From Candidatus Bathyarchaeota archaeon (GTDB lineage: Archaea; Thermoproteota; Bathyarchaeia; Bathyarchaeales; Bathycorpusculaceae), in contig JACAEK010000013.1 of the NCBI GenBank assembly GCA_013388895.1, positions 1-64,000 on the forward strand: 64,000 nucleotides of DNA. Reading direction: 5' to 3'. Positions 28,597 through 41,594 of the stretch are shown here, piece after piece. Within the stretch, counting starts at the first letter, position 1, and every line of letters starts with the position of its first letter. Both the position numbers and the translations under genes were made by a program. The notes beneath the pieces are model-generated. The model worked only from the letters and a program-made list of their open reading frames with translations. It did no database searches and was not told the origin of the DNA.

Positions 28597-31314
28597 ATGA
28601 AGAGACAAATTTGCGCATTTATGATACTAATGACTATGATTTTTGGCATTTTTAATTCTGCAAGTAGAATATTTCCTGCTGTGAGGGCTACTTATGTAGA
28701 AGACCCCATTACAAAAGATACTATCTGGACACTTGTTGACAGTCCCTTTGTAGTTTCAAACAATATTGCGGTTTATCCAAATGCGACATTAACTATAGAG
28801 CCTGGTGTTGAGGTAAGGTTTGGAGGAGCTTTCTCTCTAACGATTTCTGGAAAATTATTTGCCAACGGAATAGCAAAGCCAATTACGTTTACTTCGAATG
28901 ATTTAGAGCCGCAAACCGGAGACTGGAACTCCGTTATATTTAATGGAATCGAAAAGTCCACGTTGATAAATTGCTACGTGAAATATGCGATTAACGGAAT
29001 TTTTGTGACTAACGGCGATGTGGAAATAACAAATAGTTTCATAAGCTACTCGCAGAACGGGATTACGGCGGAATATGGAAAATTAGATGTACAGAGCACT
29101 AGTGTAAGCTATTGTTTGCAGAACGGAATCACTGTAGACAACAGCAATGTAACTATTCAAAATTGCTCAATCATGCAAAATGAAGGAAACGGCATATCCG
29201 TAACTGGGGACGGACCAGCCATTATTCAATGGAACGAAATATGGGCAAACGGAAACGGTATTCTATTAACAGGAGTACAAACCTCAACGGTTGACATAGA
29301 TCACAACAAAATATCAGCGAATAGTGGAAATGGAATACGGATTGACGCAGAAAGCCATTCGGACATAAGCATCTTGTATAACAATATCTCATCGAACGAT
29401 AAAGGATTTTACATTTCAAGCCCCACAAGCACATACATCACAAATAACTCAATCGGTCCCTACAATGGCATGGGAATGTTGTATGACCAAGGAAGCCACG
29501 TAGCGAACTATAATGACATCTATGGCAACGGAATGGGCATGAACGTGGAATCTGGAGCAATTGTGACTGCAGAATACAATTATTGGGGTGACAAAAGCGG
29601 ACCATACCATGAAAAGATGAATCCTACTGGACGAGGCAACGAAGTCGGTGGCGACGGCGTTGATCTCGATTTCATATTCTACTTAACCAAACCTATTGGA
29701 TATATCAACGTTCGCCCAACGGCAATGCTTTTAGCAGACAGAATTCTTATTCCGCCTAATGAAGATGTAGTGTTTTTTGCTACAGAATCATTTGACACTG
29801 ATGGACGTGTTGACAAGTATCTTTTCAATTTTGGGGATGGAGACAGCAGTGACTGGACAACACTATCAGTTTTCCCGCACAAATATTCCACAAATGGAAC
29901 ATACTCCGCAAACTTAACGGTCATGGATGACTATGGTACCACAAGCGATGTCGCATTTGCGACAGTAGAAGTTCAATACCTTCCGCCATTACGAGCTAGT
30001 GCTAGTCTAAGTAATTCCACTATTCATGAAGGAGAACAAGTTACAATAACTGTTTACGTGACAGACGGAATCAACGTTGTGGAAAACGCAACAATAACCA
30101 TGTTTTCAGTCGTAGGTGGAAACTTTTCACAGCCTTCAGGGCTTACTAGCGCAACTGGCTACTTTGTTACAACATTCACAGCTCCTGACATAGCCGATAA
30201 AGCGAACATTAGGGTTGTTGCAAGAGCCTCTAAAGAAGGATATGCAGATGGCTCAGCTCATGAGTATTTGGAAGTTTCGCCATTCCTCTCAGTTGAAATA
30301 GACGCTAACCCAGATGTCGTCAAATCTGAGGAGACTTCAGAAGTTGCAATCTACGTCAGAAGCAACGATGAACCAGTCGCTAACGCAAGCGTTATCTTGA
30401 CTTCTAGCATAGGAAACCTATCTTCTTACATAGGAGTGACTGAGTCGGACGGAGTTTTTTCAGTCATCCTCACGACGCCACAAACAACGACACTCCTAAA
30501 CGCTATTATAACCGCACAGGCTATGAAAGGTGGCTACATGGACGGAACAGGACAAACTACAATAGTCATAGAACCCAAAATCCTTAACGTTCAGATTAAT
30601 GCTCAACCAAACACAACAATTTCTGAGGCAAACGTGAACGTAACCGTTCATGTGGAATACGAAACTATCCCAATAAGAGACGCAAACGTCACAATAACAG
30701 CTGAAGACGGAAACTTCACAGCTATCAGCGGATTGACAAACTCGTATGGCAATATAACATTCGTTTTCACAGCGCCACCAGTTAACGCACAATCAAAAAT
30801 CACTATCACAGCAGAAGCTTCACAGACTGGATATGCAACAGGTCAAAACCAGTTGGAAGTAACAGTCAATCCACGAACATTTATAGTTAGAATATACGCG
30901 CCCACTGCCGAGTCAGAGGAAAATGCAAACGTTATAGTGCAAGTAACATGCAATGAAGATGCAACTTCCGTTGCTGGCGCAAATGTCACGATTGTAGCCA
31001 CTGTTGGAAGCTTCAATGCTACAAGCAGAATTACTGACGCTACAGGCGCCTGCAATTTCGTCTTCAATGCTCCTTACACGACTGCACAAATATTCGTAAC
31101 GATAACTGCAAACGTCACCAAGAATGGATACGTCAATGGAGGAAACCAAACAGAAATAATAGTGACTCCAAAAACACAGCAAGAAGGTGGTTGGCCACTT
31201 ACAACAATCCTTCTAATCGCCCTAATTCCAGTAATAATCGCTGTTGTGGTTGTTGTTTTGGTTAAGCTTAAGGTTATCAGTGTTTCCTCGAGTGAGGAGG
31301 CAGAAGAGGCATAA
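28597..31314 (+). CDS. Large surface protein: beta-helix, PKD and four Ig-like repeats, C-terminal anchor
   Basis: A 905-residue exported protein. A signal peptide (about residues 1-30) is followed by a right-handed parallel beta-helix (about 40-365) with NosD-like coils such as ITNSFISYSQNGI and IWANGNGILLTG. A PKD domain (about 372-460) contains FNFGDGDSSDW. Four tandem Ig-like/Big repeats of about 98 residues follow (about 462-860), each with a core such as NATITM, ASVILTS, ANVTITAE or ANVTIVAT and a closing Y-A/V-x-G segment. A TM helix and acidic tail end it (about 865-905). Many NxS/T sites suggest glycosylation. The pilus ATPase gene starts 70 bases downstream. Confidence 0.85.
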   Translation: MKRQICAFMILMTMIFGIFNSASRIFPAVRATYVEDPITKDTIWTLVDSPFVVSNNIAVYPNATLTIEPGVEVRFGGAFSLTISGKLFANGIAKPITFTSNDLEPQTGDWNSVIFNGIEKSTLINCYVKYAINGIFVTNGDVEITNSFISYSQNGITAEYGKLDVQSTSVSYCLQNGITVDNSNVTIQNCSIMQNEGNGISVTGDGPAIIQWNEIWANGNGILLTGVQTSTVDIDHNKISANSGNGIRIDAESHSDISILYNNISSNDKGFYISSPTSTYITNNSIGPYNGMGMLYDQGSHVANYNDIYGNGMGMNVESGAIVTAEYNYWGDKSGPYHEKMNPTGRGNEVGGDGVDLDFIFYLTKPIGYINVRPTAMLLADRILIPPNEDVVFFATESFDTDGRVDKYLFNFGDGDSSDWTTLSVFPHKYSTNGTYSANLTVMDDYGTTSDVAFATVEVQYLPPLRASASLSNSTIHEGEQVTITVYVTDGINVVENATITMFSVVGGNFSQPSGLTSATGYFVTTFTAPDIADKANIRVVARASKEGYADGSAHEYLEVSPFLSVEIDANPDVVKSEETSEVAIYVRSNDEPVANASVILTSSIGNLSSYIGVTESDGVFSVILTTPQTTTLLNAIITAQAMKGGYMDGTGQTTIVIEPKILNVQINAQPNTTISEANVNVTVHVEYETIPIRDANVTITAEDGNFTAISGLTNSYGNITFVFTAPPVNAQSKITITAEASQTGYATGQNQLEVTVNPRTFIVRIYAPTAESEENANVIVQVTCNEDATSVAGANVTIVATVGSFNATSRITDATGACNFVFNAPYTTAQIFVTITANVTKNGYVNGGNQTEIIVTPKTQQEGGWPLTTILLIALIPVIIAVVVVVLVKLKVISVSSSEEAEEA

Positions 31315-37309: not shown

Positions 37310-38617
37310 ATGATGCGCACAATTGAAATATTCCTTGTAATAATGATCATAACCTCAGCCTTCATAATATCCTCTTTCTTTGCAGTTTTACCTCAGCCAC
37401 GACAAGTTTCGCCACTCAACCTAAGAAGGCTCGCATTAACTACTCTCCAAGTACTAGACGTGAATTACGCCTTAAGTGAGACAATATTTAAGGCGGAAGA
37501 CGACCCAGCGTGGGGTGAACTTCAGATAGCGCTTTCCGCATGTCTACCCCCAAATATTGTTTATAATCTCACTGTTTATGAAGTAATCAGCGGAAGCAAT
37601 GGAGAACTTTACAGGCCCATGAACTTATCAATTTCAAACGCCCAAAGCTTAGGAGTGAGTTCTGATGCTTCTTCTTATCTGGTTGCTTCTTCTAACGTGA
37701 CTTTTAATGTGATTCCGGAGAAAATTGGAGACCGCACAGGTGGAGGAACCTTGTATATACTTAATTGTAGCGACGCAAATGGCTGGTGGATTACTGGATA
37801 TACAGCCCACAGTCTGGCGGAAGACCTGTATAATCTGCTTTCACCATACTTCAAAACCACAATAATGATTCAGAACACGGCGCAACTCGCGCAGATTCTG
37901 AACGGCACGTCAATACAGGGGGAAACTGTACAAAACGCCACAGTCATAAACACTGTTGGAGAAGCAGTGCCAATACCTTCGGGATACTACGCAAGCTTAG
38001 GCGTGGGATATGACGGCTCTTCTTACGCCAGATATTGCCACACTTTAGGGCTGAGAGTGCGACAGTATAACTGGACTTGGGCGAGCATAGTTGGATATCC
38101 ACTGTATTATGTCAGCAATATAGGTCTCTTTCCAGACAATCAGAACGGATATGGTATTTACGGAATGAGAAATGTCGGACCTGCGGGGCTCAATGCTTTC
38201 CTCAGAGGCTTAGACAATCAAGCCTACGTATATGATGGCAACTGGATTACTGACAGCCTCGATGAACCTGTTCCTCTCTCATCCGAAGCTCTGTATTACT
38301 GCAACTACTACGGTATTTATCCATATCCTTATCATATGGCTACAAGAGCCCTACCACAATCAATAAGAACCACGTACCATCTGACAGTAACATCATACAT
38401 TTTCAACCAAGTTGGTAACTATCTAGCAGGCGCAGTTTACAGAAACAGTTATAGAGGCTCGTTTCTTGCTTTAGGCTTGACAAGAACTCCGGACATCAGA
38501 CTCACAGCCCTTGGTCTATTGTGTGCTTTCAAACCAAGGCTTTACAGGTCGGAATATACCGCAAGTGGGACTTCAAGGCTTGTTGTTTTGCAGCTTGGGC
38601 AGGTGGGAGGTGTCTAG
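37310..38617 (+). CDS. N-terminally anchored exported protein of pilus operon (435 residues)
   Basis: Begins MMRTIEIFLVIMIITSAFII, an N-terminal helix with a Glu at about position 6, followed by PLNLRRLALTTLQVLDVNY, a layout shared with the preceding gene product. The ectodomain is rich in Tyr, Asn and Ser. No domain name can be assigned. It starts 2 bases after the previous stop, and its last codons contain the GGAGGTG ribosome-binding site of the giant pilin-like gene. Confidence 0.62.
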   Translation: MMRTIEIFLVIMIITSAFIISSFFAVLPQPRQVSPLNLRRLALTTLQVLDVNYALSETIFKAEDDPAWGELQIALSACLPPNIVYNLTVYEVISGSNGELYRPMNLSISNAQSLGVSSDASSYLVASSNVTFNVIPEKIGDRTGGGTLYILNCSDANGWWITGYTAHSLAEDLYNLLSPYFKTTIMIQNTAQLAQILNGTSIQGETVQNATVINTVGEAVPIPSGYYASLGVGYDGSSYARYCHTLGLRVRQYNWTWASIVGYPLYYVSNIGLFPDNQNGYGIYGMRNVGPAGLNAFLRGLDNQAYVYDGNWITDSLDEPVPLSSEALYYCNYYGIYPYPYHMATRALPQSIRTTYHLTVTSYIFNQVGNYLAGAVYRNSYRGSFLALGLTRTPDIRLTALGLLCAFKPRLYRSEYTASGTSRLVVLQLGQVGGV

Positions 38618-38619
38618 GA

Positions 38620-41037
38620 TTGAACAACAAGGGTCAATTTTCGATCATTGCTGCTTTGCTTGTTGCGATAATCCTCATAGCCACTGTTGTTGTCACTTAC
38701 TCTACAATACGCAACAGCTCAACGCTAGATCAACCACAAGTTCTAAGCGCAATAGACGAAACCAATTTCGCTATTAAACAGATATTGGGTTTCACTGTAG
38801 GCTATTATGGTTCAGTGTTAAAAGTCACTGGAAACTCGTCATACGCAAAGATGCTTGCGACAAACTATCTTCACAGCGGATTAGTAAACATAGCGAACAT
38901 GCGCCCTGAATGGGGAACATCCTTCAACGTGAGCAATATAGACATGCGCACGTTTTGGTTTACGAACACAAGCTATAGCACGGGAAACTTGGCTGTAAAC
39001 TACAGCTTAACAGGTCTCGGAATATATGGAATGATGTATGAAGCTTCTTGTGTACTATCAGTCAAAGTTGAAGAGACTGTCTCAGGCAATCAGACAAAGC
39101 TTATGGTAACAAAGGATGGAAATGAATCACTCGTAAATCTTGGGAAACAAAACTTCAAATTCTTCCGCTATGATTACGCGAGCTCAACATGGGAACTGAC
39201 TAGTCCAAGCACTGAGCCAGTAGCGTTTGCAAACGGCACATATTTAATCGACATCCCATCCGATGTAGATCCATACTCCTATGTCATTCAGGTGGAGGAT
39301 TCGAGAGGCATAATTGTTGTGGCTTCATCATTCAGTCGCTACGCATGCACCTTAACATGGAACTCCACACTGTATGCGTCTCTAGGTGTAACTAACAGAA
39401 CACTAATTAATCAAGAATCTTTCGAAGGAAGTTGGCCTCCATCACAACCGTCTAGCTGGACAGAAACTGGAAATTGGAACAAAGAAAGCAATCAAAAATA
39501 TGGAAGTGGGACATATTCAGCGGACTTTGACGGTAGCAGCTCAGGAGTTTCGGGAGACTTAACTACTTGTGACCTTAGTTGCGTTGACACGTCGGGTGCG
39601 ATATACGTGGATTTTTGGTATAGAGATGAAGGCCTCGACTCTGGTGAATTTATGCTTTGCTATTATGACGGAACCTCATGGGACACTATAGTCGATTTAG
39701 GAACAGGACTTGAGAACCAGTGGCTTCACTATCAACAGACGATTACAGACATTCAATATTTTAAGTCGAATTTTAGAATCCAATGGTCTGCAGTTGACGT
39801 CGAGGATGGCGAACATGCTTATGTTGATTATGTGACAGTGAAAAAAGAAGTAAATCTATCGATGGAAGGCGCAACAATTGTTGTGGAACTGTTGCAGAAT
39901 GGCACAATGCGATGGCTGGGACAAAATCTACAATTGACAACGCAAGCCAAGCCTATTCCTCCGATTCCAACAAAAGCGATTCATGTTAACCAAACAATAG
40001 AAGGCACAAACCGTGAAGTGCCATTTCAAATAGAAGATTGGGCTTCTGACTACAAAATTCCGTTAGGATTGACCAACAACGCGAGCGTGTTTAGCAGTAG
40101 GACGATGTTAGTTTTTCTGGTGAACAGCAAAGCTTCAAAAGTCGTAATCTGGTGGAACGGAAGCGATACTGCCATCCAAACATCCTACGCATATGTGAAT
40201 CAACATTTCACCGTTGACACTGTTCAGAGAACACTGACAAACGGAATCTTGGACTTAACAATTGACTTCTCACAGCGTTCAGGCGTATATTCTTTTAAAG
40301 TCGTATCAACAATCGGAGTGTCCACAAGCACAGCAGAGTTTATACGAATCAACAACAAAGTGGCAGATTATGGCAACTCTGAACCCGCTTATGCAATTAC
40401 CGAAGGCACCGTAAGAGTGATCATACATCACGAAGTTGAATGGGATGACGGTATTACTAGTCCTCTGTGTCCCAACGTTTATGCACATATAGTTCTGACG
40501 CTTCCAGCAAACGCAACATATTACACTTATCAACTCCACTTCATGTTCGTAAGCACACAGAAAAGCAGAACCATTACAGACTTGTGCCCAATCAAATTGA
40601 TGGCTTCCACAGGAACACCACAAACCGAAAATGGAACATCAAGCGGCTATCCAATAGTTTCAAACACAACTAGCCTATTCTACAATTTCTCGGCTTCAAC
40701 CTGGAAACACCATTGGAGCCAACTGGTTTCGGGAGCAAAGGGGACAGGAATTATGTTTACAGACAGTTCAAACCAGCAACTCTACGTCTTCGATGCCATT
40801 GCGTCAAGCAAGACAGGAGGCATCAGAGCGGATGGCACTAACAGAGCAATTGATCTGCTTCCAGTATCATCAATGGCTCAAGTGCAATTCCAGTATGCAC
40901 TAGACGTCATGTGGTACGGTGCAGTAGTAACATTCGACTCAACAACGCCAATATATGAAGTTGTAAACGGTCAAAAAACGGGTCTGTGGATAACTGTTGA
41001 ACATCCACCAACAATTACAGTAGCCACAGAAAATTGA
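38620..41037 (+). CDS. Giant pilin-like adhesin (about 805 residues) with inserted MAM-like domain
   Basis: Start set at TTG 38620 because GGAGGTG (38606-38612) lies 7 bases upstream and the protein then begins LNNKGQFSIIAALLVAIIL, a pilin-type signal followed by the usual helix. An upstream frame to 38521 would overlap the previous gene without reason. Residues about 265-410 form a MAM/jelly-roll-like domain (SFEGSWPPSQPSSWTETGNW, YVDFWYRDEGLDSGEF, WLHYQQTITDIQYF), a layout seen in adhesion domains. The rest is beta-rich with many sequons. It may sit at the pilus tip. No homologue is recognised. Confidence 0.7.
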   Translation: MNNKGQFSIIAALLVAIILIATVVVTYSTIRNSSTLDQPQVLSAIDETNFAIKQILGFTVGYYGSVLKVTGNSSYAKMLATNYLHSGLVNIANMRPEWGTSFNVSNIDMRTFWFTNTSYSTGNLAVNYSLTGLGIYGMMYEASCVLSVKVEETVSGNQTKLMVTKDGNESLVNLGKQNFKFFRYDYASSTWELTSPSTEPVAFANGTYLIDIPSDVDPYSYVIQVEDSRGIIVVASSFSRYACTLTWNSTLYASLGVTNRTLINQESFEGSWPPSQPSSWTETGNWNKESNQKYGSGTYSADFDGSSSGVSGDLTTCDLSCVDTSGAIYVDFWYRDEGLDSGEFMLCYYDGTSWDTIVDLGTGLENQWLHYQQTITDIQYFKSNFRIQWSAVDVEDGEHAYVDYVTVKKEVNLSMEGATIVVELLQNGTMRWLGQNLQLTTQAKPIPPIPTKAIHVNQTIEGTNREVPFQIEDWASDYKIPLGLTNNASVFSSRTMLVFLVNSKASKVVIWWNGSDTAIQTSYAYVNQHFTVDTVQRTLTNGILDLTIDFSQRSGVYSFKVVSTIGVSTSTAEFIRINNKVADYGNSEPAYAITEGTVRVIIHHEVEWDDGITSPLCPNVYAHIVLTLPANATYYTYQLHFMFVSTQKSRTITDLCPIKLMASTGTPQTENGTSSGYPIVSNTTSLFYNFSASTWKHHWSQLVSGAKGTGIMFTDSSNQQLYVFDAIASSKTGGIRADGTNRAIDLLPVSSMAQVQFQYALDVMWYGAVVTFDSTTPIYEVVNGQKTGLWITVEHPPTITVATEN

Positions 41038-41129: not shown

Positions 41130-41594
41130 ATGTTAACCAAAAACGTGTTAAAATCCAGAAAAGCCATATCGCCTATACTAGCGACGCTACTGTTGATTGT
41201 TATAGCTGTAGCCGCTATTGTTGTAACGTACGCTTGGATAATGACCTACATGAGTAGCGCAGGACAACAAGCAGGAGTGCTTCTGTACAAAGAAAATGTT
41301 TATTGGAATTCAACGGAAAAGAAGACGTATATAACCATTGGCAACTCTGGAACCTCAGATGCAAAAATCGTAAGGCTCTATCTAGGAACATCACAGGGCA
41401 ACCTCCTAAACGTGACTGCATACACAAATATTGGCACAGGAAAAATCTTAAGCGCAAAGTCAGTCATGGTAATAACGCTATCTTGGCCAAACAACGTAGC
41501 AAGCACGTGGACCGCTGGAGATTACTACTATTTCAAAATAGTGTCTGAAACAGGACAAGAGCTAGGACCATTTCCTGAGCAAGCAGCTCAGTAA
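41130..41594 (+). CDS. Type IV pilin (archaeal, DUF1628-like)
   Basis: A 154-residue protein with a canonical archaeal prepilin N-terminus: SRKAISPILATLLLIVIAVA, basic residues immediately before the helix. The C-terminal region is a small beta domain (KKTYITIGNSGTSDAKIVRLYL). Its size and textbook signal make it the best candidate for the major pilin. A separate TATA-like region and 92-base gap suggest its own promoter, which would fit higher expression. Confidence 0.82.
   Translation: MLTKNVLKSRKAISPILATLLLIVIAVAAIVVTYAWIMTYMSSAGQQAGVLLYKENVYWNSTEKKTYITIGNSGTSDAKIVRLYLGTSQGNLLNVTAYTNIGTGKILSAKSVMVITLSWPNNVASTWTAGDYYYFKIVSETGQELGPFPEQAAQ

Follow-up and report, generated by a model that had tools for sequence, protein, structure and literature searches.

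A modular pilin-like protein with a variable domain slot in a conserved pilus operon of Bathyarchaeia

Results

A large pilin-like gene in a conserved pilus operon

We analysed a 64,000-nucleotide stretch of DNA (hereafter the window; positions 1 to 64,000 of contig JACAEK010000013.1) from a Candidatus Bathyarchaeota archaeon, in which an operon encodes a set of pilus assembly genes together with an unusually large pilin-like protein of 805 aa (Table 1). The gene for this protein is the fifth and final member of a consecutive run of pilin-like genes located 3′ of the assembly ATPase and the membrane platform, and a 154-aa pilin and a prepilin peptidase are encoded downstream. This order (ATPase, platform, pilin-like genes, peptidase) is kept across dozens of genomes, and in being co-encoded with an assembly ATPase, a TadC/PilC platform and a prepilin peptidase the 805-aa gene has the genomic setting of an archaeal type IV pilin. 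The closest relatives of its product with named records belong to Candidatus Bathyarchaeota. Among the other pilin-like genes of the operon, the ortholog of the 289-aa gene in another genome matches DUF7289 weakly (0.0015, below the cut-off).

Table 1 Features of the pilus operon and of the 805-aa protein, in window coordinates
Feature	Position	Strand	Basis and remarks
Secretion/assembly ATPase (T2SSE, PilB3-type C-terminus), 542 aa	31384..33012	+	Pfam PF00437 1e-36, PF23989 3e-8; constant neighbour
TadC/PilC-type membrane platform (T2SSF), 567 aa	32990..34693	+	Pfam PF00482 5e-24; constant neighbour
Pilin-like gene, 289 aa	34696..35565	+	RAIS/P-type leader read directly; position conserved
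Pilin-like gene, 161 aa	35588..36073	+	N-terminal hydrophobic helix read directly; length and position conserved
Pilin-like gene, 414 aa	36063..37307	+	N-terminal hydrophobic helix read directly; length and position conserved
Pilin-like gene, 435 aa	37310..38617	+	~440 aa with the big scaffold beside it; ~150 aa where the bare pilin stands alone
Ribosome-binding site GGTGGGAGGTG, within the preceding gene's final codons	38602..38612	+	Read directly
Modular pilin-like display protein, 805 aa	38620..41037	+	~60 orthologs at matching operon position
Class III (prepilin) leader MNNKG/Q and hydrophobic helix, residues 1-32	38620..38715	+	Q6/G5 conservation; modelled helix 4-32
Pilin module, residues ~1-250	38620..39369	+	Stand-alone gene in other Bathyarchaeia; helices 4-94, then strands
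Inserted MAM/CBM-like jelly-roll domain, residues ~262-411, main slot here	39403..39852	+	Models, Foldseek; slot filled differently or empty in relatives
C-terminal beta-rich scaffold module, residues ~415-805	39862..41034	+	Ortholog alignment, structure model
Small pilin, 154 aa, candidate major pilin	41130..41594	+	AISPILATLLLIVIAVAA leader; Pilin_N 0.14, below cut-off
Prepilin peptidase (A24), 273 aa	41672..42493	+	Pfam PF06847 2e-23, PF01478 2e-12

An earlier note on this DNA, made by a model from the letters and their open reading frames, had read positions 38620-41037 as a single pilin-like protein, and this reading held: the frame opens at a TTG codon that lies 7 bases beyond the ribosome-binding site, and the aligned orthologs start at the same M/L-N-x-KGQF leader. 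A mechanical ORF finder preferred a GTG at 38521 as the start, against which both the ortholog leaders and the ribosome-binding site support the TTG at 38620. The note had also proposed that expression is tied to the operon, as a strong ribosome-binding site falls within the end of the gene before it; as read from the sequence, this site does precede the stop codon TAG of that gene (38615-38617), and the proposed coupling is supported. An assembly chimera was considered as the source of the gene and rejected, the frame being open without stops and the arrangement recurring in several independent genomes.

At the N-terminus of the protein, MNNKG/QFSIIAALLVAIILIATVVVTYSTIR, a class III (prepilin-type) leader runs into a hydrophobic helix, and the leader motif (MNNKG/QFSIIAALLVAIILIATVVVTYS) is of the kind that characterizes archaeal type IV pilins. 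In an alignment of 20 orthologs Q6 is invariant and G5 nearly so (>90%), and a helix is predicted over residues 4-32, such that the pilin-type signal helix of the earlier note is borne out by both the leader and the structure model. The 805-aa protein contains 19 N-glycosylation sequons, whereas the ATPase has 1 and the platform protein 2, and this abundance fits an extracellular and exposed location.

The full-length model (20 sequences in the alignment, mean pLDDT 77.5) has helices at residues 4-32, 38-70 and 73-94 and strands onward to 246, with low pLDDT at 1-6 and 31-37; this predicted arrangement of an extended N-terminal helix followed by a beta domain is that of an archaeal pilin. Searches with the whole 805-aa protein returned no match over the cut-off in Pfam or NCBIfam, named pilin family models included; for the N-terminal module, weak, sub-threshold matches to DUF7261 were obtained in 3 of 10 relatives. 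Archaeal pilins have little sequence in common, so a match to a family model is helpful but not required. A profile search against PDB sequences gave no useful solved relative of the constant parts of the protein, including the N-terminal module; with this, and with DUF7261 appearing only below threshold, the assignment of a pilin fold rests on the leader, the helix, the operon and the peptidase.

The protein had been described as five times the size of a normal pilin with an inserted MAM-like block. The comparison of lengths is apt (805 aa against the 154 aa of the gene at 41130), but the MAM-like block accounts for only ~150-160 residues, and the bulk of the extra mass is a second beta-rich module (residues ~415-805) that was absent from the earlier note. 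Foldseek searches with the full model against PDB and viral libraries returned generic beta-rich matches with TM by query <0.3, and we therefore leave the fold of this C-terminal module unclaimed.

A constant scaffold with variable insertion sites

Across the ~60 orthologs collected, a few of them clipped by contig ends, residues 1-250 and 415-805 are constant: these flanks align, whereas the middle does not. Lengths range from 625 to 1459 aa for this scaffold, compared with 149-168, 385-450 and 143-156 aa for three of its operon siblings. High length variability is confined to the scaffold gene within the operon; in this comparison the wider spreads of some other genes represent truncated or mis-assigned ORFs, and the scaffold-gene row includes four proteins that share only the insert. 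Within the order, up to ~70 of 163 genomes have the scaffold (71 pass E<=1e-5, a number that includes some with the pilin module only); elsewhere in the class it was found in just two genomes. In the longest ortholog (1459-1461 aa; locus L127, 8995-13380), Ig-like and internal repeats make up a C-terminal tail of 825 residues.

We mapped inserts in 61 proteins on a profile built from insert-free orthologs. The main site is the linker that joins the two constant modules (profile positions ~248-257), where ~28 of the proteins carry an insert of 130-550 aa; ~20 have no insert at all. Other sites are used more sparsely, with one protein each at profile positions 281, 393, 406, 452 and 504, three at 576 and five at the C-terminus, and in the numbering of the query the insertion points of relatives within the C-terminal module fall at residues ~441, 557, 570, 619, 668 and 740 in addition to the C-terminus. 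The inserts are of several kinds: a MAM-like domain, a second sandwich (‘YAVAGS’), a third sandwich, multi-domain blocks, 450-550 aa long, in which a DYVDN...DTLTE / ELDLEVQWTN frame recurs, and an F5/8-type C (discoidin) domain. The last of these, inserted at position 576, is a bona fide member of its family (Pfam 5e-11 and 2.5e-12, above the cut-off). The kind of domain is not bound to the site, as species differ in whether the third sandwich family is found at 393, 406 or 452, and the MAM-like domain is found at both the linker and the C-terminus. Among close relatives the domain seen in the window is kept in some and missing or replaced in others, as would be expected of the display domain that the earlier note had envisaged.

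A jelly-roll domain in the linker of the window protein

When folded alone with 20 relatives, the insert of the window protein gave a model of high confidence (pLDDT 95.1, pTM 0.90), and in the full-length model it is bordered by low-confidence linkers at residues 249-277 and 412-414. The separate beta-sandwich that had been placed at residues 265-410 is thus recovered as a unit predicted to fold independently. Foldseek searches against PDB matched it to carbohydrate-binding modules (CBM16, TM 0.75 by target; CBM22, 0.59; CBM61, 0.66) and to MAM domains (promeprin beta MAM region, TM 0.71 by query; insect SR-C MAM, 0.64), as well as to Eph ligand-binding domains, reelin repeats and the gingipain K2 cleaved-adhesin domain. 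The predicted fold is therefore the jelly-roll of MAM and of CBM16/22/61, although one common to CBMs, Eph and reelin is not specific to MAM.

At the sequence level, none of 20 insert-family members matches the Pfam MAM model at E<=1 or the NCBIfam choice-of-anchor J model at E<=10; a single weak match to choice_anch_F was found (0.036), and two further matches, each for one member, were to a reelin subrepeat (1e-4) and to a GH114-associated domain (5e-4). The insert thus shares its jelly-roll fold with the MAM, choice-of-anchor J, cleaved-adhesin and CBM16/CBM22/CBM61 families while having no significant Pfam or NCBIfam match to them, and the MAM-like label of the earlier note is apt for the fold but does not extend to membership in the MAM or choice-of-anchor J families. 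Instead, the insert forms a sequence family of its own, found mainly in Bathyarchaeia, in which 14 residues are invariant over 20 sequences. A search of the insert profile against PDB sequences retrieved nothing beyond antibody light chains and Eph receptors, with E values of 0.1-1, which we did not count as evidence. The base composition of the insert is near that of the rest of the gene (GC 41.5 compared with 42.4 and 43.5; GC3 34.6 compared with 44.4 and 40.9), and a clear signal of recent import is accordingly absent.

The same domains in other pilus machines

The domain type of the window is also found beyond this operon. Genome G005 encodes a 607-aa pilin-like protein with a domain ~70% identical to that of the window, as part of a different machine that has its own ATPase and two platform proteins; in other families the same type occurs in 447-457 aa pilins of this second machine, and it is also present in 843-859 aa proteins beside a third kind of ATPase/platform set. 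These occurrences in the pilins of other machines suggest that several machines draw on one pool of domains. The window genome itself also encodes this second machine (locus L211, 4603-7071, on contig 27 of G000), whose 822-aa pilin combines the DYVDN/ELDLEVQW frame with other inserts; the content of this pilin is the same in the sister species, whereas the window slot differs between the sisters.

The persistence of the MAM-like domain in homologous display pilins of other machines, together with its invariant residues, bears on whether the inserts contribute anything at all. Jelly-rolls can serve purely structural roles, and one may postulate that the linker and surface loops merely tolerate inserted domains, with the jelly-roll adding no function; empty-slot orthologs are indeed common and apparently intact. 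As the inserts are nonetheless full in-frame domains of extracellular types, and as they cluster at the linker between the pilin and the beta-module, we regard such neutrality as very improbable.

Two further loci were observed in the course of this comparison. In one (L060, 5815-7761, on contig 31 of G012), the MAM-like domain and the ELDLEVQW block are found in a non-pilin membrane protein with a long predicted cytosolic C-terminal part. In the other (L214, 5391-6993, on contig 45 of G000), a third pilus-like locus of the window genome, the ATPase is split into two ORFs in overlapping frames by a frameshift or an assembly error; the gene is intact in the same-genus locus L223.

A bare pilin module in related operons

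In other Bathyarchaeia the equivalent position in the operon is taken by a bare pilin module of 241-272 aa alone (profile E 1e-13 to 1e-16), and the machine encoded by these operons is orthologous to that of the window, with ATPases 75-79% and platform proteins 64-75% identical. The gene before the bare pilin (loci L220-L225) encodes 143-160 aa, compared with ~440 aa before the scaffold. These operons point to an order of accretion in which a bare pilin came first, the two-module scaffold and its enlarged neighbour followed, and cargo domains were added last. The sequences further suggest that the two neighbouring pilins grew in parallel, and that their added parts may touch each other.

Exchange or divergence between sister species

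The contrast between a fixed machine and a variable slot is most evident in a species of the same genus (genome G001, locus L048). Its ATPase and platform protein are 95% identical to those of the window, compared with 78% for the pilin module and 61% for the C-terminal module; its linker holds the ‘YAVAGS’ domain, and an additional sandwich is inserted at 393. The machine-gene tree places the window and G001 as sisters (support 100). On this tree linker content must have changed 10 times or more, and grouping the six tested MAM-carriers into one clade is rejected (p-AU 0.0009). Trees of the scaffold, however, are compatible with a single origin of the MAM-carriers (p-AU 0.47 for the whole, 0.16 for the N- or C-terminal part alone), and the tree of the MAM-like domain is mostly unresolved. 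Because the rejection comes from the machine-gene tree only, an exchange that took in the gene's entire C-terminal part is indistinguishable from one of the insert alone, and it is possible that a longer gene segment was exchanged.

The residues left over from the linker provide another view of these events. In the window the leftover residues (WNSTLYASL) precede the insert, whereas in G012 and G001 they follow the ‘YAVAGS’ insert ((G)NYSTIPNET and DYSTIPDEN, respectively), as if domains had entered one short linker at different points. An alternative scenario is that the slot domain of the sister is a strongly diverged version of the window jelly-roll, produced by fast divergence with no exchange. 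The two linker-domain families show borderline similarity in hhalign (67% probability over 75 columns), such that they may be remote kin, and this scenario also agrees with the scaffold trees, in which the MAM-carrying genes may have arisen once. We nevertheless judge it unlikely: each family is ~44-75% identical to its own reference with nothing intermediate, the local alignment across families reaches ~35% where the flanking modules reach 78% and 61%, and the close relative of the window's domain in a different pilus machine comes from another genus. The position of the leftover residues on opposite sides of the insert (before it in the window, after it in G012) and the rejection of a single MAM-carrier clade by the machine-gene tree likewise speak for exchange.

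In the tree of the C-terminal module, the window sequence (39862-41034) groups with that of G024, which has an empty slot, with support of 99 rather than with its sister species, a placement hinting at mosaic exchange inside the scaffold itself.

Discussion

We consider it likely that the 805-aa protein serves as a modular minor pilin in a type IV pilus of this archaeon, probably located at the tip, and presents exchangeable ligand-binding domains. Of this reading, the leader, the operon, the modular build and the variation of the inserts are supported by sequence, comparison and structure prediction, while processing, the tip position and the ligand are what we infer. The protein combines a pilin module with a domain that is not specific to pili (a jelly-roll here, discoidin in relatives), which is the composition of a modular pilin as defined by Raynaud et al. 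2021. A role as a tip adhesin, as suggested in the earlier note, would be in keeping with this architecture and with bacterial modular pilins, and ligand binding by the jelly-roll insert is predicted from its fold. In the mechanism that we propose, the peptidase would trim the leader of the 805-aa protein, and the ATPase and platform would assemble it with the other minor pilins, probably first, such that it caps the filament tip. The jelly-roll, whose closest folds bind polysaccharides or extracellular proteins, would then hold a ligand outside the cell, candidates for which include a sediment polysaccharide, the surface of another cell or a matrix protein. Replacement of the domain would change the adhesion target of the pilus and leave the assembly interfaces undisturbed.

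An operon of an ATPase, one platform, several pilin-like proteins and a peptidase cannot by itself separate a pilus from a pseudopilus, and the large pilin could instead be the tip ‘piston’ or substrate adaptor of a secretion-type pseudopilus, with inserts that recognise secreted substrates; GspK and CofB are precedents as large minor pilins with extra domains (PMC8179133). The small pilin encoded downstream (41130-41594), however, is typical of filament subunits and is 92% identical in a species of the same genus, and the types of insert resemble glycan and adhesion modules (discoidin, CBM-like). Variation of the inserts between sisters whose machine is 95% identical also suits an outward-facing binder better than a conserved substrate adaptor, and we therefore find the pseudopilus an unlikely explanation relative to the display of binding domains on a pilus.

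A broader reading is that the gene encodes a multi-slot display scaffold served by a domain pool that is shared by at least two, and probably three, machines. Recombination would move domains from gene to gene and from lineage to lineage, such that specificity switches between sisters and the machine remains fixed. This interpretation is plausible, but we advance it only tentatively.

The protein can be placed among several known systems. In Streptococcus sanguinis PilB and PilC, a bulky pilin-borne module (vWA or lectin) gives adhesion; these are proven adhesins, and their tip placement is modelled from architecture (PMC8179133, PMC9934059). Like them, the window protein has a class III leader and a pilin module that bear an unrelated bulky domain, with a constant carrier and a variable effector. 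In PilB and PilC, however, the module is grafted C-terminally on a small pilin, whereas the window protein is archaeal, its main slot separates two constant modules, further slots lie in the second of these, inserts are both internal and C-terminal, and the domain pool spans several machines. The combination of a conserved carrier with a variable effector whose types recur is also that of the PilC/PilY1 tip adhesins; PilY1, though, does not belong to the pilins, and its carrier part is a beta-propeller. For archaea, DUF2341 proteins have been proposed as type IV pilus tip adhesins, and other large secreted proteins have been listed as ‘minor pilin or adhesin’ (Makarova 2016, PMC4858521). The window protein resembles the former as a large secreted protein in an archaeal pilus operon with several minor pilins and a predicted place at the tip, but differs in that it bears the pilin leader and module itself and in that domain insertion is documented across species. 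No Pfam match at threshold to a PilY beta-propeller or a DUF2341 domain was found here. Finally, GspK (T2SS) and CofB (T4bP) are minor pilins at the filament tip whose pilin module is interrupted or extended by extra domains; these domains are not described as an exchangeable set (PMC8179133), whereas in the window family both content and position change between sisters. In the open-access literature, to which our search extended (subscription papers being outside its scope), we found no description of archaeal pilins with exchangeable domain slots, nor any experiment on this protein or its lineage. The principle of the modular pilin is known from bacteria and the multi-slot archaeal form is new; no new kind of machine is involved, and the protein is a clear and testable case of exchangeable cargo carried by a pilus that otherwise stays constant.

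Bathyarchaeia occur widely in sediments, and little is known of their attachment to substrates or partners. A subunit of the pilus with a sister-specific binding domain provides a direct handle on the attachment target of each species, and it extends the bacterial idea of the modular pilin to archaea in a form in which genome sequence reveals carrier, slot and cargo. The order of accretion, from bare pilin to scaffold to cargo, is preserved in living relatives, and the empty-slot orthologs constitute natural controls for the function of the grafted domains.

A further large gene lies 5′ of the ATPase in the window (28597-31314) and encodes a 905-aa secreted protein with NosD/beta-helix, PKD and Ig-like repeats, a C-terminal membrane anchor and 21 sequons. 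Homologs of this protein occupy the equivalent place in many scaffold loci, and it is probably an S-layer-like or adhesin companion of the pilus.
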